Source: Flavobacterium sp. UBA5153 | GTDB taxonomy: Bacteria; Bacteroidota; Bacteroidia; Flavobacteriales; Flavobacteriaceae | Direction of reading: 5' to 3' | DNA: 64,000 bases | Assembly (NCBI GenBank): GCA_002413745.1 | Contig: DHXP01000018.1 | Coordinates: 81,231 to 145,230 of the forward strand | Shown here: positions 1,779 to 11,863 of the stretch, piece by piece | How the letters are laid out: every line of letters starts with the position of its first letter | Numbering within the stretch: position 1 is the stretch's first letter | Notes under the pieces: model-generated | The model's database searches: none | What the model was told of the DNA's origin: nothing | Seen by the model: only the letters and a program-made list of their open reading frames with translations | Made by a program: the position numbers and the translations under genes

Positions 1779-4700
1779 ATGAGTGTTATAAATCAATATA
1801 TTACTTTTCTAAAAGAATATAAAAAACTTCTTGAAAGAGGAGTTAAAGATGTTTTATCTAAAAGTTTATCATCAAATTTCATTTGGATAGATGAAATTCA
1901 AGAATTAGTAAAGTCAGACATTTGTAATTCAAATTTAGCAAATATATTTTTAGAAGACTTCGAAAAACAATCGATAATATTCTCACTTGCAAAACCCAAA
2001 AAACCAATTGTTAAGATTCCAAATAATTTTTTGGAAATCATAGAATTTGATGAAGCTAAAAATAAATTTTCAAGTATCAATAATGACGATGAAGAACTTA
2101 TTTATTTTCAAAATAGTGAAAAAGGAAAAATTGAAATTGATAAAATAAAAGTTTTTGAAAAAAATAAATCAATTTATTCAAAATTTTATAGAGCTTACAA
2201 TGATATTAAAAATGATTCAAATCTAGAAATTGTTTTAAGTTTAGCTTTGATGCAATTCTCAAAAAACAATAACAACAAAAATATTTCAAAAGTTAACCAA
2301 CATTTATTTCATTTTCCATTAAACTTGGATATTAATTCGAATAATGAAATAAAAATCAAGTTTTCTGAATCCGAAAATCCATATTCTGACTTCTTTTTCT
2401 TAAACAATACTCCTATTGAAAAAGATATTTTAAGTAATATCGTTGATAGTTTTGAATCTAAAGTATTAGAATTTGGCTGTGATTTTATCTACGAGGATGA
2501 TTTGAAAAAATTAATTTCAAAATCAATTCAGAAAATTTCTGATAATTCTGAATTTCAAGATTCTATATTAAAACCGCAAAGCGATTTTTATAAAGAAGAT
2601 TTCTTTAAAATTTCATTTTCGCCTGCAATAAATTTCAAAACAAAAAAGCCAAGGTTTTTCGAAAAACTAACGGATTCAATTATTGAATACAATGAAGAAA
2701 ATGAAAACGAATCAAAACTTTTAAATCTATTAATTAGGAATCCTGATAATGAACACAATAATTCATATCCAAAATCTAATTACTTCATTGATGATTTGTA
2801 TGAAAATTATAAAGAAAATGCAAATTCACTAAATGCTGAAGAAGATTTTTCTGTTTTTTTTCCATTACCATATAACAATGAACAAAAGCAAATTTATGAA
2901 AACTATTTAAAAAACAGATTAACAGTTGTTACTGGTCCACCAGGCACTGGAAAATCTCATACTATTGTAAATATTTTATGTTCACTTTTAGCACAAGGGA
3001 AAAGGGTTTTAGTAACTGCACAAACTGACAAAGCTCTTGAATCACTTTTAGATAAAATTCCTAAAACATTTGATGATTTAATTTTTACAAAAATTGAGTT
3101 AGAAACTGATAAAACTAGATTTTCATTAGAAAATAGTATCAGTAAAATTTCAAGTATTTTAACAGATAATTTCTATTTAAATATTGAATCAAAAATAAAA
3201 GAGTTAAACAATCTAAAAAGTGATTATGTAAACTTGAAATCTAAAATAATAAATGCTTTAGAGAGGGAATATAATGAAATTACTATTAATGAAACTTTTT
3301 CAAATTTACGAGCATATCAAATAGTTGATAAAATTGAAAAGAAAGATTCAAAAGAATGGAACTGGATAAAAGACAATTTATCAATAGAGCAATTAAATGA
3401 TTTTGATAAATTAAAAAAGTCAATATTCAATTACAATAAATATCGATATCTTAATACAAACTATAACCAAATTGTTGATTTTGACTTAAACGCTATATAC
3501 AAAAAATTGAAAACTTATGATTTTTCTGAATTTCTTGAAATTCAGAAAAATATTCAACGATTAAGTGATAAATTAAAAATAAAGGAAGAGTTAAAAGATA
3601 AATTTTTAAGTATTGATTTATCGAAAATAATTGAAACATTAAGTACATATTCTAATGTTGAAATTGTGTTAAAAAAACAAAATGACATAGATGTTTTGTT
3701 GAAAAAACTAAAACAAATCCCTCAAATAGAAAATATCACAACAAATGTAACATTTTCAAATATTGTTAATAATGAAACAAAATATCTTTTAGATATTGAA
3801 ACTTACTTTTCATTTATTAGTGATGAAAAAGTTGGTTTTTTTAAGCGATTAGATTCTAAATTTAAGAAAATATCGTATTTAGAAGACGTAACAATCAATG
3901 GGATAAAAACAAATTCAAAACAAAGTATTACAAAACTCAAAGAATTCATTAATACTATTTGTTTGATAAATAGAAATTTCTATTTATTAAAAAACAATGG
4001 CTATTCATTTGAGTATGATGACAAAGCTGACATCGAATCAAAATTAGAAATTTTAAAAGAAACTATTTCAAAAGTAGAACGAAATAATGAATTAGTCAAA
4101 AAAATTCAATTTGAAACTAACATAATAGAATTTTCAAAATTTGTAAATATTGATAAGTTTGAGATAGAAGAATTAACTGAAAAAGCAATTGAGTATAAGG
4201 ATGATTTTGATGAATTTAAAAAACTGGAGTTTCAATTTAAAAATATTTTTAAGTCATTGGTAGAAACAAGTTTAATTCTTGAGAATTCAAAAATCAAAAA
4301 AGACTTTGGAAATCTATTGCCGATTCAAGAAATTGTTGATAAAGATACTTTTGAAAATTTTTTTGTAAAACTTGAAGAAATTAATAATCAACTGAATTTA
4401 GAAAAGCTATTTATTGATTCAAAAGATTATTTAAAAGTAGTTTTACCCTTAACATTTGAAAAAATAAATGAAATTTCATTTGAATTTATTACTAAAGAAA
4501 ATTTTGAATTTGCTAACGCAAATTTTTATTTAGTTATAAATGAATTCATTGATATTCAAAAGACTAAAGAAGAACTTGCTTTTATTAATAAAAAAATATA
4601 TGGTATTAAATGTGATATTCTTTTTGATTTAGCAAAAGATAATTTTAGAAATAAATTTGATGAAAATGAGATTAATGATTTTATCAATTTGCTTGAACAA

Positions 4701-6905
4701 TATAAATATAACTTAAATCAAAGCAATAGAAAAATAAGGAATCAAACTCAATATCAAATTTTAGCGAGAAAAAATAGTGTTCAAATCAGCAAAAAACTTT
4801 CTTGTTGGGTTATGAAATTTAATGATGTTTTAAATTCTGTTGGTAATGAACCCGAGATATTTGATTGTATTATAGTTGATGAAGCGAGCCAATTAGATTT
4901 TAATAGTTTATTGCTTGGCTATTATACTGAAAATATGATAATTGTTGGCGATGACAAACAAACTTCTCCAAGTAGTTTGACTGGAGCTGATGGAAATGAT
5001 TTTGAAGCAATAAAAAACAAACATTTAGATTTTTTAGATTCAAATATTATTCACATAAAAAGTGACAATAGTTTATTCACTCTTTCAAAAATGATTGCTG
5101 GGAATTCAAATCTTGAATTAAAGGAACATTTTAGATGTGTTCCAGAACTAATTGAATTTTCAAAATTTAATTTTTATAATAACTCGTTAAGACCGCTAAA
5201 ACAGATTAATGGAAATAGACTTCAACCTAAAGTTCCTGTTTTTATTGATGGTGCCTTTACCGAAGAAAAAATTGTTCACAAAGAAATCGAACAAATCAAA
5301 GCCTATTTAAGAAATATTTTAACAGATGAAAAATACTCCAATAAAACAATTGGAGTCGTAAGTTTAGGCTTAACAAAACATACTGAAAAGTTAAAAGATA
5401 TAAAGGAGGATTTAGCAAATGAATTTGGTAAAGATAAAATTGATAAGCATAAATTAATCATTGAAGATTCACCTAAATTTCAAGGAGATGAAAGAGATGT
5501 AATGCTAGTTTCGTTAGGTGTAGCAACAGATTTTGAGAAATTAAAGAAAAATGAAAACGCAAAACCAAGAGCTATAATTTCTGACCAAGATGAATTTAAA
5601 AAAATTAATGTCGCATTGAGTAGAGCGAAAGAACAAATGATTTTATTTCATTCTGTCAAATCCGAACATTTAAACTCACAAGATTTTAGAAATAAAATTT
5701 TAAACTTTTTCTATGAAGAAGTAAAACCAATAGAAGAACTTAAATTGGATTACTATAATGAAATTAGAAACTTACATAACACTCCTACTCCATTTGATAG
5801 TTGGTTTGAATACGATATTGCAAGTGAATTAATCGGAAAAGGATATAGTTATATTGAGCCTCAATACAAAGTTAAAGAAGATGAAACCTACTATAACCAT
5901 AAAACTAATAAGCAATCGTATGTAAATTTCAAACTTGATTTAGTAGTTCATAATAATGGTAAAAGAGTTGCTATTGAATGCGATGGCGACCCTTTCCATT
6001 CTTTGCCTGTAGATGTTGCTTATGACATTGAAAGACAAGAATTTTTAGAAAGAGTTGGCTGGAAAGTATATAGAATTTTATATTCTGCTTACAAAAGAAA
6101 TCCAAGCAATGAAATAGAAAAAATGATTAACTTCATAACTAAAAACACAAAGAAAGATGAAGTAAAACTATTTATTCCATCAGTAAGAGAAAACATTATT
6201 GAAGAAATTGATTATGATGAATTTGAAAACGAGGAAGAAAATGGTTCAAGGATACCAATTGAAAATTCAAATAAAACATATCAACATAAATCTCTCATAG
6301 ATTTAATGCAAGATGAAATTATTGAAACTGAAAATAATCTTTTCACAATAAAAGAAAACATAGAAGATAAAATTTTAAGATATTTTAATCTTTTTGAAAA
6401 CGGAACTTATAAATTACAAGAAAATCCTGAAAATTTTTGTTTACATTCATTACCAATTAGTAAAAAATATAGGAACGGATATTTGTTGCAATGCTATGAT
6501 AATGGTCATATTAACAAAGTTTATGTTAAGACTTTGTTGGACAAAAGAATTGATTATAATTATTCAAATGGCAAAAACCCTAACGCTAAAATTCAATATT
6601 TAAAACTTATTGAAGATGATGCAATTATTGGGTTAAAATTCAATAAAGGAAAAGAAATAATTTTCAAAGCCCATAAAACTGAAAACATTTCGAATAGAGA
6701 ACAATTACACTTGCAAGGCTATAAAGTGATTTATCAAAGTTTTGAAAATATTGAATATAAAGTATTTCCAAAAAACATATCTGACGAAATTAATAGGTTG
6801 ACATACGAAAGTTTTAACGCAAACGGGAAGCAGACTAACAATAAAAATTATGAAAATGAGTGGAATATAATACAAAAATTTATGCCAAATATAACAAAAA
6901 AGTAA
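1779..6905 (+). CDS. Large superfamily 1 helicase with C-terminal Vsr/DUF559-like nuclease domain, probable defence protein
   Basis: A 1708-residue protein. Residues 1-370 show no motif I recognise. A UvrD/DNA2-like SF1 helicase follows, with Walker A GPPGTGKS at 386-393, DEAS box at D1034-E1035 and motif VI NVALSRAKE at 1277-1285. About 550 Lys/Glu/Leu-rich residues between motifs I and II probably form a coiled-coil insertion. Near the C-terminus is a PD-(D/E)xK nuclease of the Vsr/DUF559 type, with D1387, E1400 and D1402 (IECDGD) and the typical FLERVGWKVYRI tail. The last 230 residues are unassigned. Helicases fused to Vsr-like nucleases are known as single-gene phage defence candidates (Hhe-like and relatives); that this one defends is inference. 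The gene is far more A/T-rich than addA next to it, which suggests recent acquisition. The ATG at 1779 is the only sensible start. Confidence 0.8.
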   Translation: MSVINQYITFLKEYKKLLERGVKDVLSKSLSSNFIWIDEIQELVKSDICNSNLANIFLEDFEKQSIIFSLAKPKKPIVKIPNNFLEIIEFDEAKNKFSSINNDDEELIYFQNSEKGKIEIDKIKVFEKNKSIYSKFYRAYNDIKNDSNLEIVLSLALMQFSKNNNNKNISKVNQHLFHFPLNLDINSNNEIKIKFSESENPYSDFFFLNNTPIEKDILSNIVDSFESKVLEFGCDFIYEDDLKKLISKSIQKISDNSEFQDSILKPQSDFYKEDFFKISFSPAINFKTKKPRFFEKLTDSIIEYNEENENESKLLNLLIRNPDNEHNNSYPKSNYFIDDLYENYKENANSLNAEEDFSVFFPLPYNNEQKQIYENYLKNRLTVVTGPPGTGKSHTIVNILCSLLAQGKRVLVTAQTDKALESLLDKIPKTFDDLIFTKIELETDKTRFSLENSISKISSILTDNFYLNIESKIKELNNLKSDYVNLKSKIINALEREYNEITINETFSNLRAYQIVDKIEKKDSKEWNWIKDNLSIEQLNDFDKLKKSIFNYNKYRYLNTNYNQIVDFDLNAIYKKLKTYDFSEFLEIQKNIQRLSDKLKIKEELKDKFLSIDLSKIIETLSTYSNVEIVLKKQNDIDVLLKKLKQIPQIENITTNVTFSNIVNNETKYLLDIETYFSFISDEKVGFFKRLDSKFKKISYLEDVTINGIKTNSKQSITKLKEFINTICLINRNFYLLKNNGYSFEYDDKADIESKLEILKETISKVERNNELVKKIQFETNIIEFSKFVNIDKFEIEELTEKAIEYKDDFDEFKKLEFQFKNIFKSLVETSLILENSKIKKDFGNLLPIQEIVDKDTFENFFVKLEEINNQLNLEKLFIDSKDYLKVVLPLTFEKINEISFEFITKENFEFANANFYLVINEFIDIQKTKEELAFINKKIYGIKCDILFDLAKDNFRNKFDENEINDFINLLEQYKYNLNQSNRKIRNQTQYQILARKNSVQISKKLSCWVMKFNDVLNSVGNEPEIFDCIIVDEASQLDFNSLLLGYYTENMIIVGDDKQTSPSSLTGADGNDFEAIKNKHLDFLDSNIIHIKSDNSLFTLSKMIAGNSNLELKEHFRCVPELIEFSKFNFYNNSLRPLKQINGNRLQPKVPVFIDGAFTEEKIVHKEIEQIKAYLRNILTDEKYSNKTIGVVSLGLTKHTEKLKDIKEDLANEFGKDKIDKHKLIIEDSPKFQGDERDVMLVSLGVATDFEKLKKNENAKPRAIISDQDEFKKINVALSRAKEQMILFHSVKSEHLNSQDFRNKILNFFYEEVKPIEELKLDYYNEIRNLHNTPTPFDSWFEYDIASELIGKGYSYIEPQYKVKEDETYYNHKTNKQSYVNFKLDLVVHNNGKRVAIECDGDPFHSLPVDVAYDIERQEFLERVGWKVYRILYSAYKRNPSNEIEKMINFITKNTKKDEVKLFIPSVRENIIEEIDYDEFENEEENGSRIPIENSNKTYQHKSLIDLMQDEIIETENNLFTIKENIEDKILRYFNLFENGTYKLQENPENFCLHSLPISKKYRNGYLLQCYDNGHINKVYVKTLLDKRIDYNYSNGKNPNAKIQYLKLIEDDAIIGLKFNKGKEIIFKAHKTENISNREQLHLQGYKVIYQSFENIEYKVFPKNISDEINRLTYESFNANGKQTNNKNYENEWNIIQKFMPNITKK

Positions 6906-6981
6906 CGGTTGTTTTTGTATATATTAATTGATAATTATAGCATTGGGATAGAAATATCAAAAACCTAAAATCAAAAATCAA

Positions 6982-9900
6982 ATGCAAAGACCTTCATTCT
7001 CCATATACGACGCATCTGCAGGTTCCGGAAAAACCTATGCGCTCGTCAAAGAATACCTGAAAATCATTCTTGTTGCCAAAAAAAATGATGCGTATCGCAA
7101 TATTCTCGCCATCACGTTTACCAACAAAGCGGTTCACGAAATGAAAAGTAGAATTGTAGGTAGTTTATCCGAGTTTGTCAAAGACGAGCCCAGCGAAAAA
7201 GCACAGGATTTAATGGAACATTTGGCGATTGAAACCGAGCTTTCCATTATCCAGATCAAAACCAAATCGCAGCAAATCATCAAGCATATTATTCATAATT
7301 ATGCGGCTTTTGATATTTCTACCATCGACAAATTCACGCATAAAGTCATTCGGGCTTTTGCACACGATTTAGGTTTGCCAATGACTTTTGAAGTGACTTT
7401 GGATACCGAAAATTTGCTCATCGAAGCCGTCGACGCCATCATTGCGCGAGCTGGCGAAGATGAAACTTTAACCAAATTGCTCATCGATTTCACGATGGAA
7501 AAAACCGATGACGACAAATCTTGGGACATTTCCCGCGAAATTCTCGAAACCGGTCGGTTGGTTCTCAATGAAAATAACCGAAATGAAATCACCCATTTTC
7601 AAGACAAATCTATCACCGAATTTGTCGAAATAAAAAACAAACTAGCTGAAGCCTGCAAAGTTTTGGAAAAAGAAAATGCAGAATTCGCCGAAAGCGCGTT
7701 GCTGTTAATCGAGAAAAACGGAATTGACACCAAATCATTTTCCGGTGCTTATTTCCCTAAACATCTACAAAGTATTCAGGAAGGAAAATTCAACCCGAAA
7801 AACAAAACCTATCACGAATCCGACGATATAAAAATCAATAAAACCGCCAAAGACAGGGCTTTAATTGAAAATATCATTCCTGAATTATTGCAAATTCTTG
7901 ATACCATTTATAAGAACTTCGAAAAAAGGGATTTCTACAAAGCATTCCTGAAAAATATTACGCCATTATCTTTATTAAATACCGTCAGCAACGAATTGGC
8001 AAAAATTCAAAACGAACAAAACGTGCTTTCCATTTCCGAATTCAATGCCATCATTCATCGTGAAATTCAAAACCAACCGGCTCCATTTATTTACGAGCGA
8101 TTGGGAGAACGCTATCGCCATTTTTTTATCGATGAATTTCAGGACACTTCCGAAATGCAATGGCAAAATCTGATTCCGCTTATCGACAACGCAACTTCAA
8201 GCGAATTCGAGGGCGAAAAAGGGACTTTAATGATTGTGGGTGACCCGAAACAGTCCATTTACCGTTGGCGTGGCGGCAAAGCTGAACAGTTTATTGAGTT
8301 GAGCAAAGACCATAATCCGTTTAACAATCCCGATAAAGTTTTAGAACATTTAGACACGAATTATCGCAGTTATTCGCAAATAATAGATTTTAATAACAAT
8401 TTTTTTCAATTGTTGTCCAGTGAATTTGAACATTTGGATTACAAGGATTTGTATGAAAATCACAGCCATCAAAAAAGCAATCATAAAACGGGCGGTTATG
8501 TGAATATTTCCTTTATTCCAAAAGTTGAAAATAACGAAGATGAAGAAGAAGCATTGGACAAAACCGAATTGTATTTATTGGCAACTTTAAATACCATTCA
8601 AAAAGTACAAAAACAAGGTTTCGAATACGAAGATATTGTGATTCTTACCCGAAAACGCAGTCAGGGAATTGCTATTGCTAATTATTTGACAGAGCAAGGA
8701 ATTCCGCTTTTGTCTTCGGAAACCTTGATGATTCAAAATGCCACCGAAGTCCGGTTCATTATCCATTTATTAAAGTACTTAAAAAACAGCGCCGATTTAG
8801 AAGCAAAAGCTTATTTTCTGCATTATGTTGCCGAACATCTTCAGGACAAATTACCTATCCACGATTTCATTGCCAAGGGAATGGACGAAAAAAAGGAAAC
8901 GGAATTCGAAAATTGGTTAACGAGTTTCGATATTTCACTTTCCTTTCAAGACATCCGAAAAAAATCGCTGTACGAAGCAGTGGAGACCATAATAAGTAAA
9001 TTCCTCTCCCCTCCCGATAGCTATCGGGACTTCTCCAAAGGAGAGGGCGCCGAAACTAAAAAGTTGGGATATATGACTGGCGGAAACTATTCTCATTTGT
9101 TGATAGAAAAAGCTCAAGAAATGAGGAAAACCCCAACAGTTGCTGAAAAAATATTATGGTCAGAGCTAAGATCACAAGCTTTAGATCACAAATTTAGGCA
9201 ACAGCATCTGATAGATGATTTTATTGTTGATTTTGTCTGTTTGTCAAAAAAATTAGTAATCGAAGTTGATGGAGACTATCATTTTACCGAAGAACAAGTC
9301 GAGTTAGACAACGATAGGGCAATTGCTCTGAATAAATTAGGGTATAAAGTAATTCGATTTACTAATGAGCAAGTAACTAAGGATATTTTCAATGTCCTAG
9401 AAGAGATAAAAGAAGTATTAATCCAACAAAAAGAAATTCAAAACTCCAACTCTCCAGTTACGTCTCCCTCCCCTTCGGGGAGGGTTGGGGAGGGGAATGC
9501 TTATGTGCAATATTTCCTCGACATTGTTTTGGAAAGAGATGTAAGAAACCAAGCGGGAATTTCGGATTTCCTGAATTATTGGGACAAAAATGGGGAGAAA
9601 TTCAGCATTCCATCGCCCGAAGGCAAAAATGCGGTTCGGATTATGACCATTCATAAATCGAAAGGATTGGAATTTCCAGTCGTGATTATGCCATTTGCCG
9701 AAGAAGATTACAGCAGAAAACCCAAAGACAAACTGTGGCTCAATGCTGAAGAGCAGGATTTTGGTTTGCCCAAAGTTTTAATTGATAATTCTAGTGCAGT
9801 AGAAGGTTTTGGCGAAAACGCAAAATGGGTTTATGACCAGAAAAAACAGGAAGAATTATTGGACAATATTAATGTTTTATATGTGGCTTTAACCAGAGCC

Positions 9901-10605
9901 GAAGAGCAATTGTATGTAATTTCGAATATGAATTTAACGTCTAAAGGCGAAGTTAAAACCAATAATATGTCGGCTTTTTTTATCAATTATTTGATTAACA
10001 AAGGACAATTCGGCGAAGATAAATTGGAATATGAATTTGGGAATCCAGCCAAATTATCTTCTGAAAGTAATAAAAGTGATGTTGTAAAAACGATTCCGTC
10101 AGTTCGTGAAGTTCTTGATCCAAAAAACATAAAAATTGCCCAACGAGAATCCCTAATGTGGGGAACACATCAGCAGGAAGCCATAGAATACGGAAATGTG
10201 GTTCATGAAATATTGTCTTTCGTGAAAACCAAAAACGATGTTGATTTGGCAATTACAAAAGCGATTGAAAGCGGATTGATTACTTTTAATCAAAAAGTGG
10301 TTGTTTTTAAAACCATTCAGGAAATCGTCAACCACAAAGAACTTTCAACTTATTTTGCTGAAGGAAATGAAGTGTTGAACGAGCAAACCATTATTCAAAA
10401 ACAAGGAAAAACCATCAAGCCAGACCGAATGGTTTTAGCCAAAAACAAGGAAGTTTTATTGTTGGATTACAAAACAGGAATTCATAATCCTAAATACCAA
10501 TTACAATTAGAAAATTATCAAAATGCGATTGAATTGATGGGTTATAAAGTCACAAAAAAAGCATTAATATATATAGGCGCAACAATCAATGTGGTAAATT
10601 TGTAA
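6982..10605 (+). CDS. AddA/RecB-like ATP-dependent helicase-nuclease interrupted in frame by a DUF559 cassette
   Basis: 1207 residues. This is the helicase-nuclease subunit of the double-strand-break end-resection complex that prepares DNA for RecA. Walker A ASAGSGKT is at 11-18, the DEFQDT box at D384-E385, DPKQSIYRWRGG near 418-429 and motif VI VALTRAEE at 968-975. The C-terminal RecB-family nuclease has D1148 and D1162-Y-K1164. Residues about 675-839 do not belong to the family: they are a complete DUF559 endonuclease with flanking G/C-rich palindromic repeats translated as part of the protein. The reading frame is intact across both junctions. The partner AddB-like protein lies at 13466. 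Whether the interrupted enzyme is active cannot be told from sequence. Confidence 0.9.
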   Translation: MQRPSFSIYDASAGSGKTYALVKEYLKIILVAKKNDAYRNILAITFTNKAVHEMKSRIVGSLSEFVKDEPSEKAQDLMEHLAIETELSIIQIKTKSQQIIKHIIHNYAAFDISTIDKFTHKVIRAFAHDLGLPMTFEVTLDTENLLIEAVDAIIARAGEDETLTKLLIDFTMEKTDDDKSWDISREILETGRLVLNENNRNEITHFQDKSITEFVEIKNKLAEACKVLEKENAEFAESALLLIEKNGIDTKSFSGAYFPKHLQSIQEGKFNPKNKTYHESDDIKINKTAKDRALIENIIPELLQILDTIYKNFEKRDFYKAFLKNITPLSLLNTVSNELAKIQNEQNVLSISEFNAIIHREIQNQPAPFIYERLGERYRHFFIDEFQDTSEMQWQNLIPLIDNATSSEFEGEKGTLMIVGDPKQSIYRWRGGKAEQFIELSKDHNPFNNPDKVLEHLDTNYRSYSQIIDFNNNFFQLLSSEFEHLDYKDLYENHSHQKSNHKTGGYVNISFIPKVENNEDEEEALDKTELYLLATLNTIQKVQKQGFEYEDIVILTRKRSQGIAIANYLTEQGIPLLSSETLMIQNATEVRFIIHLLKYLKNSADLEAKAYFLHYVAEHLQDKLPIHDFIAKGMDEKKETEFENWLTSFDISLSFQDIRKKSLYEAVETIISKFLSPPDSYRDFSKGEGAETKKLGYMTGGNYSHLLIEKAQEMRKTPTVAEKILWSELRSQALDHKFRQQHLIDDFIVDFVCLSKKLVIEVDGDYHFTEEQVELDNDRAIALNKLGYKVIRFTNEQVTKDIFNVLEEIKEVLIQQKEIQNSNSPVTSPSPSGRVGEGNAYVQYFLDIVLERDVRNQAGISDFLNYWDKNGEKFSIPSPEGKNAVRIMTIHKSKGLEFPVVIMPFAEEDYSRKPKDKLWLNAEEQDFGLPKVLIDNSSAVEGFGENAKWVYDQKKQEELLDNINVLYVALTRAEEQLYVISNMNLTSKGEVKTNNMSAFFINYLINKGQFGEDKLEYEFGNPAKLSSESNKSDVVKTIPSVREVLDPKNIKIAQRESLMWGTHQQEAIEYGNVVHEILSFVKTKNDVDLAITKAIESGLITFNQKVVVFKTIQEIVNHKELSTYFAEGNEVLNEQTIIQKQGKTIKPDRMVLAKNKEVLLLDYKTGIHNPKYQLQLENYQNAIELMGYKVTKKALIYIGATINVVNL
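9004..9496 (+). mobile_element. DUF559 endonuclease cassette with flanking palindromic repeats, inserted in frame in addA
   Basis: The left boundary is a compound palindrome, CTCTCCCCT around the perfect TCCCGATAGCTATCGGGA, closed by GGAGAGGG (9004-9047). The right boundary is CCCTCCCC-TTC-GGGGAGGG followed by TTGGGGAGGGG (9463-9496). Between them lies a DUF559 protein that could start at its own Met (ATG 9073) and reads MRKTPTVAEKILW, KFRQQH, DFIVDFVC and KLVIEVDGDYHF, the classic DUF559 order with catalytic-type D and E-x-D. The 493 bp open frame has no stop. DUF559 genes flanked by such repeats occur as free-standing intergenic genes in Bacteroidota; here the whole unit sits inside a housekeeping gene. 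Movement mechanism is unknown. Confidence 0.75.
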
Positions 10606-10669
10606 ATCATTAATAAAATGAATTTAGAAGTTGAGCAACTTCAAACTTTAAACAAAACAAACTGAATAT

Positions 10670-11863
10670 ATGTACGGAAAAATACAACAACACTTACAAT
10701 CAGAACTTCAAGCCATCGAAGATAACGGGATTTTCAAAAAAGAAAGAATTATCACTTCGCCACAAGGAGCAGAAATCACTATTTCGACAGGGGAAAAAGT
10801 TTTGAACTTTTGTGCCAACAACTATCTTGGACTTTCATCACATCCCGAAGTGATTCAAGCAGCCAAGGATGCTATGGACACGCACGGTTTCGGAATGTCG
10901 TCGGTTCGCTTCATTTGCGGAACGCAGGATATTCACAAAACATTGGAAAAAAAGATTTCTGATTTTTACGGAACGGAAGACACGATTTTATATGCGGCAG
11001 CTTTTGATGCAAACGGCGGCGTTTTCGAACCTTTATTAGGCGAAAATGACGCGATAATTTCGGACAGTTTAAACCATGCCTCAATTATTGATGGTATTCG
11101 TTTATGTAAAGCAGCGCGTTATCGTTATGAAAATAGTAACATGGAAGATTTGGAAAAACAATTAATCAAAGCCAATGAAGCCGGAACACGTTTCAAACTT
11201 ATTGTAACAGATGGTGTTTTCTCAATGGACGGCATAGTTGCACCCCTGGATAAAATCTGTGATTTGGCCGATAAATATGACGCAATGGTTATGGTGGACG
11301 AATGTCATGCCGCAGGATTTATTGGTGCAACCGGAAAAGGAACGCTCGAGGCAAAAGGGGTAATGGGACGAGTTGATATTATTACGGGAACTTTAGGAAA
11401 AGCACTTGGCGGAGCTATGGGCGGTTATACGACTGCCAAGAAAGAAATTATTGAATTGTTGCGTCAACGTTCCAGACCTTATTTGTTTTCAAACTCATTG
11501 GCTCCGGCAATTGTTGGGGCTTCTATTAAGGTTTTTGAATTGTTGGAAAAAGATACCACTTTACGTGATAAACTAGAATGGAATACTAATTATTTTAAAG
11601 CGGGAATGAAAAAAGCAGGTTTTGACATCATTGATGGGGATTCCGCAATCGTTCCGGTAATGCTTTATGACGCAAAATTGGCTCAAACAATGGCAAATGA
11701 GCTCTTAAAAAAAGGAATTTATGTTATTGGCTTCTTTTTCCCGGTGGTGCCAAAAGATAAAGCAAGAATTAGAGTACAATTATCGGCAGCTCATTCGAAG
11801 GAGCATTTAGATAAGGCAATTGAGGCTTTTGTTGAAGTAGGAAAAATGTTAAAAGTTATATAA
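10670..11863 (+). CDS. kbl: Glycine C-acetyltransferase (2-amino-3-ketobutyrate CoA ligase)
   Basis: A PLP enzyme that cleaves 2-amino-3-oxobutyrate with CoA to glycine and acetyl-CoA, the second step of threonine degradation. Its 397 residues match the family length. The PLP lysine is K244 in [14 protein letters not shown], the same number as in the Escherichia coli enzyme. The DECHAAGF aspartate that holds the pyridine ring and the [10 protein letters not shown] segment are also present. The alternative alpha-oxoamine synthase roles (KAS, BioF, HemA) are less likely given this match. It stands between addA and ompA with its own spacers. No threonine dehydrogenase gene is in the window. Confidence 0.93.

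Follow-up and report, generated by a model that had tools for sequence, protein, structure and literature searches.

Splicing is the usual explanation for homing elements in conserved genes, since it conceals them from selection; homing genes pass through a cycle of gain and loss. Palindromic DNA that is translated in frame inside proteins is known from the Rickettsia palindromic elements. At the locus described here, in a 64,000-nucleotide stretch of Flavobacterium sp. UBA5153 (contig DHXP01000018.1, positions 81,231 to 145,230; the whole stretch is hereafter the window), an addA gene contains a complete DUF559 endonuclease module between two inverted palindromic units, all in the host reading frame. 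The initial annotation had read this insert as resembling a mobile gene with palindromic ends that tolerates or selects for in-frame insertion. Our analysis supports that reading; two outcomes that would have spoken against it, namely that the segment is ancestral in all AddA orthologues and that DUF559 genes elsewhere lack such ends, were both tested and neither occurred. We propose, with a probability of roughly two in three, that the insert is a non-splicing, in-frame, homing-type mobile cassette with lineage-matched palindromic ends. Beyond what had been noted before, the analysis brought out site fidelity, ends that follow the nuclease lineage, palindrome-only alleles, transfer between species and a foreign palindrome nested in the left end. 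No description of such a kind of mobile gene was found in the open-licence PMC papers on DUF559/PF04480 that were searched.

The cassette in the window addA gene

The Pfam match places a complete PF04480 (DUF559) domain at residues 709-813 of the AddA/UvrD-like protein encoded by open reading frame (ORF) 6982-10605, and the insert alone matches PF04480 with an E-value of 1.8e-32, confirming an endonuclease in frame inside addA. The features of the locus are:

6982..10605, + strand: host gene, AddA/UvrD-like helicase-nuclease, 1207 aa including the insert
9005..9495, + strand: in-frame cassette including both hairpin ends; the same site also occurs empty or with palindromes only
9005..9047, + strand: left palindromic end unit, inverted relative to the right unit, translated
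9013..9028, no strand assigned: separate dispersed palindrome CCCGATAGCTATCGGG, nested in the left end unit; 29 exact places in the genome
9073..9075, + strand: possible internal ATG, not conserved in all sister cassettes
9106..9420, + strand: DUF559 Vsr-like nuclease domain (PF04480), D/E/H intact
9464..9495, + strand: right palindromic end unit, translated; hairpin 9466-9484 plus GGGGAGGGG tail

The cassette, about 491 bp long, had been placed at 9004..9496; it does lie there, with borders now corrected to about 9005-9495 and an uncertainty of about one codon because the terminal C/G runs merge with host codons. The right end reads, in order, CCCTCCCC-TTC-GGGGAGGG-TT-GGGGAGGGG, with CCCTCCCC-TTC-GGGGAGGG forming the hairpin 9466-9484, and the left end matches it in inverted orientation, apart from the disruption caused by a second palindrome nested inside. 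Palindromes thus flank the module on both sides as claimed, but the one originally quoted for the left side is this different, dispersed repeat within the longer unit 9005-9047. Its 29 exact places in the window genome include the cassette copy and rise to 45 when at most one mismatch is allowed; the pattern CTCCCCN{3,4}GGGGAG has nine places in the same genome versus none for the reversed control. The palindromes that bracket the module (9013-9028 and 9466-9484) are G/C-rich in a window of 34% G+C, and of the five perfect hairpins with G/C-rich arms in the 64 kb they are the only ones within a long frame.

The frame is open throughout ORF 6982-10605; both repeats are translated and the host frame is kept, as first described. 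The module's own possible start codon is present (ATG at 9073) but is not conserved in sister cassettes, for example those in RecG, so that, judging from these sequences, the nuclease is probably made as part of the host protein and not from the internal ATG. The earlier comparison with an intein without splicing was apt: no Hint splicing domain is among the Pfam matches of the window protein or, at E 1e-8, of the nine other host proteins checked, and an intein was rejected on this ground. A group I or group II intron or an IStron was likewise rejected, as Rfam gave no intron RNA match in window positions 6500-11000 and the frame is open.

Profile match and fold both place the nuclease among the DUF559 (PF04480) Vsr-like nucleases. 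Its best fold match is NGO0050 (3hrl, a putative endonuclease), followed by the homing endonuclease I-Bth0305I, and the fold is that of the EDxHD homing endonuclease catalytic domain. The putative catalytic D/E/H, which we take to be the motif letters of the DUF559 module, are kept in 164 of 167 inserted copies. The ratio of nonsynonymous to synonymous substitution rates (dN/dS) has a median of 0.08 over pairs chosen for closeness (21 run, 19 with a usable ratio), indicating that the nuclease is under purifying selection; the module sets for this and for the host-block comparison below include a few genomes in duplicate. An assembly artefact or a decaying pseudogene is scarcely credible against this background: fragmented assemblies are among the genomes, a catalytic residue is missing from three of the inserted modules and the fusion protein is predicted from the sequence, but the cassette is present in 80 named records and in genomes assembled as one contig (G036 and G112 among them), with frames of more than 1000 aa and the low dN/dS just given.

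Just upstream of addA, the large helicase-like ORF 1779-6905 contains a weak PF04480 match (24.2 bits, window positions 5901-6134) near its C-terminal part, which is apparently a normal domain of that protein.

Alleles of the addA site and transfer between species

AddA was found in 61 of 61 sampled Flavobacterium genomes, with a match running continuously through the insert in five and no such match listed in the rest; the segment is thus missing from part of the orthologues. In at least one of the rest (G028) contig ends fall at the insertion site. The insertion point lies between SKFL and NAYVQYF. Comparison of addA orthologues, as initially suggested, did yield uninterrupted alleles, for example SKFLNPKVSNAYV. 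At the same point other alleles bear a single palindromic unit in frame (L051), a nuclease-less pair of inverted units separated by a short spacer, also in frame (L053), or a decayed remnant (L047). On a tree of 33 AddA proteins (30 loci kept from the genus AddA search and three filled ones added) the filled state needs six changes, all six forced by well-supported branches, versus an average of 7.3 for shuffled labels; it is therefore hardly clustered. A record titled as a Rhizobium metagenome-assembled genome (L321) has a Flavobacterium-like AddA with the cassette and is probably a contaminant contig.

Two Dokdonia species share a module that is 98.5% identical from hairpin to hairpin within LeuRS genes that are 86.0% identical (p 2.4e-14), and the identity switches at the hairpin ends. 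The cassette likewise exceeds its host in Flavivirga (96.3% vs 83.1%), in a RecG trio (99.4% vs 92.5-95.1%) and in the pair L008/L016 (91.3% vs 76.0%). The reverse case is seen in L068/L069, where LeuRS genes sharing 88.7% identity hold, in the same loop, cassettes of only 62.0% identity. These identities indicate that in several pairs, a minority of all same-site pairs, the cassette is transferred between orthologous sites of different species as a hairpin-to-hairpin unit, independently of the host gene.

Hosts, palindromic ends and dispersed units

PF04480 matches occur in 62 of 121 Flavobacterium genomes; those under about 78 bits, mostly partial, were left out of the modules fetched. The 74 full modules (window excluded) divide into 44 in open frames longer than 230 aa and 30 in shorter frames, so that, with the window, 45 modules of the genus set are inserted in frame and such insertion into other ORFs is common. 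The hosts, read from the flanking sequences and again including the window, are AddA (8), the LeuRS CP1 loop (13), a second LeuRS site (1), MetH at site one (11) and site two (3), RecG (5) and a restriction-modification ORF (4). The window genome itself has modules in AddA, LeuRS and a restriction-modification ORF, together with one free copy and two weak matches; a LeuRS search finds one gene, split by the insert, and the sole LeuRS detected thus carries a cassette. Outside the genus, in Bacteroidota, LeuRS, MetH and RecG are occupied at the same sites and LeuRS also at a third, and further hosts are HsdR (just before the ATPase motif), HsdM, an IcmF-like mutase and AddA at another site, with N-terminal fusions of the module to HemF, HisF and RNase H. 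The outside-genus loci comprised the 30 top matches and 40 more selected chiefly for the length of their frames, from which no phylum-wide fraction follows; L268, with a masked stretch, was excluded as a host example. One LeuRS (L076, genome G016) holds two cassettes, at two sites and with different end types.

This distribution bears on the view that the nuclease is an ancestral extra domain, fused long ago, serving the host in repair or defence and lost many times. The strong purifying selection, the single clade formed by the AddA-site modules and the many same-site pairs (most of them) whose module is not closer than every host block would all suit it. However, LeuRS, MetH and other mutually unrelated proteins contain this same domain, LeuRS genes that resemble one another hold strongly divergent cassettes, the cassettes are younger than the host genes and LeuRS-loop modules split over two clades, and we regard an ancestral domain as improbable.

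The best 80 of 246 relatives of the window cassette lineage in named genomes are all insertions in AddA (24) or in one LeuRS loop (56), and one extra free module adjoins one of these insertions. Several free copies share the same neighbours between genomes, which fits site fidelity. Matches to the cassette in plasmid (37) and phage (3) records all have less than 60% identity, and carriage on such replicons was rejected. On a Sphingomonas plasmid (L390) a free DUF559 gene with inverted ends stands between sufB and sufC, and on two Deinococcus plasmids (L387 and L392) such genes stand in operon-like rows, among hpa genes. The main rival to homing is true transposition, in which the DUF559 nuclease would recognise its own hairpin ends and excise or copy the unit in a REPIN-like or TnsA-like manner; insertion would be broad and only in-frame copies in tolerant loops would survive, giving an apparent site specificity. 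The LeuRS CP1 loop does hold unrelated short repeats in other Flavobacterium genomes (L124, L127, L165, L166, L168, L180-L183), as does the second MetH site (L005, L010), for example GTCATTGCGAGC...AAGCAATC; these loops are thus insertion-tolerant hotspots and the tolerance is real. Confinement of those 80 relatives to two sites and the constant neighbours of several free copies fit a broad inserter poorly, and no target duplication was mapped; we consider transposition unlikely, if clearly the most serious competitor.

Inverted ends are widespread among the modules. When left flanks were aligned with reverse-complemented right flanks, the median score was 21 for 142 modules versus 11 for 398 control pairs taken 400-900 bp away, and scores of at least 16 were reached by 67 of the 85 inserted modules and 41 of the 57 free ones versus 23 of the 398 controls. 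DUF559 genes elsewhere therefore do have such ends: for 109 of the 142 Bacteroidota modules the score lies above the highest that 20 shuffles of the module's own flanks gave, and among ten plasmid loci from cyanobacteria, Deinococcus and proteobacteria (taken from 37 plasmid records) eight have inverted ends whose score 0 of 200 shuffles reached, those of Photobacterium and Methylobacterium showing no such ends by the same 200 shuffles. A simple hairpin scan, positive on either side for 22 of the 44 inserted modules and 14 of the 30 free ones versus 31 of 1480 control windows, misses imperfect units, and the inverted-repeat score was used instead. Between different host sites, end similarity averages 0.20 at 25-35% protein identity and 0.47 above 65% (74 pairs), with a rank correlation (rho) of 0.28 that 0 of 500 permutations matched; the end sequence follows the nuclease lineage even across host sites.

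Gene-less units are scattered over the same genomes, frequently in intergenic positions, and form inverted doublets, a REPIN-like trait, in five of 20 fetched loci. Besides the AddA alleles L051 and L053, such units are translated in frame inside long ORFs at L186, L188 and L196. In L196 (genome G110) two units stand close together in frame, without a nuclease, in a tRNA-synthetase-like ORF that by eye is presumably IleRS. A terminator reading of the hairpins was discarded, as it does not fit the translated in-frame copies. The unit pattern was matched in 26 of the 34 genomes that have in-frame modules and in 7 of the 87 that have none, counts that include the cassettes' own ends (the sole match in G016 and G038) and statistics that ignore phylogeny.

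Such units could also be moved by a Y1 transposase, as repetitive extragenic palindromic (REP) sequences with their RAYT transposases, the DUF559 gene being a passenger. The doublets resemble those of REPINs (PMC3116915), and Y1 genes are present in 11 of 12 genomes searched. Yet 0 of 30 Y1 loci hold the cassette unit, on which ground Y1/RAYT was rejected as its mover; four show other palindromes, of CCAACGGTT type, and at one weak Y1 match (L225) a hairpin of CCCTCTCC type stands 1.3 kb away. Moreover, G029 has six units and no Y1 match, and the ends follow the DUF559 lineage; a REP/RAYT origin is very improbable.

A parallel is offered by small GIY-YIG genes of ten Flavobacterium genomes (L395-L424), which have inverted ends of another family, of TCGAGCGCAGTCGAGA type in several. 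In 16 of 24 the end score was reached by at most one of 100 shuffles, versus 0 of 5 UvrC-sized controls, and some of these ends look like terminators; L408 was too short and was left out. One HsdR (L257) contains a GIY-YIG domain in frame besides its DUF559 cassette. Two unrelated nuclease families may thus use the same strategy. At L424 a pair of CCCCGATAGCTATCGGGG flanks the GIY-YIG gene.

Proposed mechanism and relation to known systems

In the proposed mechanism, a DUF559 endonuclease of Vsr/EDxHD fold, set between two inverted hairpin-forming units, would occupy one fixed, insertion-permissive loop in a conserved gene of the host and be translated in frame as an extra domain of the host protein, without splicing. 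As part of that protein the nuclease would cut alleles of addA, leuS, metH or recG that lack the insert, at the cognate site within a conserved stretch; a filled allele acquired by horizontal transfer would then serve as repair template, so that the cassette is copied in (homing). The palindromic units would be the cassette ends, encoding Gly/Pro/Ser-rich linkers that keep the frame, and perhaps also sites of nuclease action; rare off-site moves would found new site lineages, and nuclease loss would leave palindrome-only alleles. Site fidelity, patchiness, purifying selection, the homing-family fold and the transfer of the unit between species point to homing. Its unusual feature, the lack of splicing, is most likely explained by loops that tolerate an extra domain and by palindromic ends that double as linkers.

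Several points weigh against homing. The module exceeds every host block in only 10 of 406 AddA, 54 of 2340 LeuRS, 1 of 91 MetH, 4 of 28 RecG and 2 of 15 HsdR pairs, and falls below every host block in 57, 399, 10, 5 and 9 of them, respectively; as the cases above the host are a minority, much of the inheritance may be vertical. An approximately unbiased (AU) test gave p-AU 0.0005 for the host tree with the AddA module, a rejection; each of the six host blocks put to the same test, however, likewise rejected the rest of the host, and the test, being non-discriminating, was set aside. No target-site duplication was mapped, the terminal C/G runs merging with host codons and the linkers differing among empty alleles. 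The end-protein correlation is modest for pairs at different sites, and part of the site fidelity may be loop tolerance. The cutting and copying steps are inferred, and homing alone does not explain the palindromic ends or the dispersed gene-less units.

With somewhat less than even odds, the cassette may exemplify a broad category of mobile element in bacteria: a small nuclease of homing type (DUF559/Vsr-like, with GIY-YIG as a parallel family) with lineage-matched palindromic ends, which would colonise fixed loops of housekeeping and essential proteins in frame without splicing, spread across species and leave behind in-frame and intergenic palindromic repeats of a sort common in bacterial genomes. 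The insert is apparently retained in mature AddA, RecG, MetH and the sole detected LeuRS, and a selfish nuclease may thus persist as a passive extra domain. The cassette is a candidate mover for palindromic repeats not linked to RAYT, those translated as part of proteins among them, and the question of why such genes are marked by palindromes becomes testable. In annotation, many core enzymes described as 'endonuclease domain' fusions may carry a parasite and not a new function.

Among described systems, the EDxHD (Vsr-like) homing endonucleases, represented by I-Bth0305I, resemble the cassette in the fold of the catalytic domain. In contrast to I-Bth0305I, the cassette lies inside a host protein with no intron or intein, has palindromic ends and shows no extra DNA-binding domain in its module, and its cleavage activity is only predicted. 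NGO0050 (3hrl) and Caulobacter VsrA have the DUF559/Vsr-like family and fold in common with the cassette nuclease; the former is known here from its PDB title, the latter is a lone gene with a proposed mismatch-repair role (PMC12907096), and mobility, palindromic ends and in-frame insertion appear in neither of these sources. REP/REPIN sequences with RAYT share with the cassette inverted palindromic doublets, a gene flanked by the repeat and dispersed gene-less copies, whereas the cassette has no linked Y1 transposase, a different nuclease fold and in-frame copies inside proteins. As in Rickettsia palindromic elements and in-frame miniature inverted-repeat transposable elements, palindromic DNA is translated within proteins; unlike in the Rickettsia elements, to which PMC5896051 refers, the palindromes of the cassette bound a nuclease gene. 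Inteins and group I introns with homing endonucleases likewise place a homing-type nuclease within a conserved gene, but the cassette has neither splicing domain nor intron, and the insert apparently stays in the protein.
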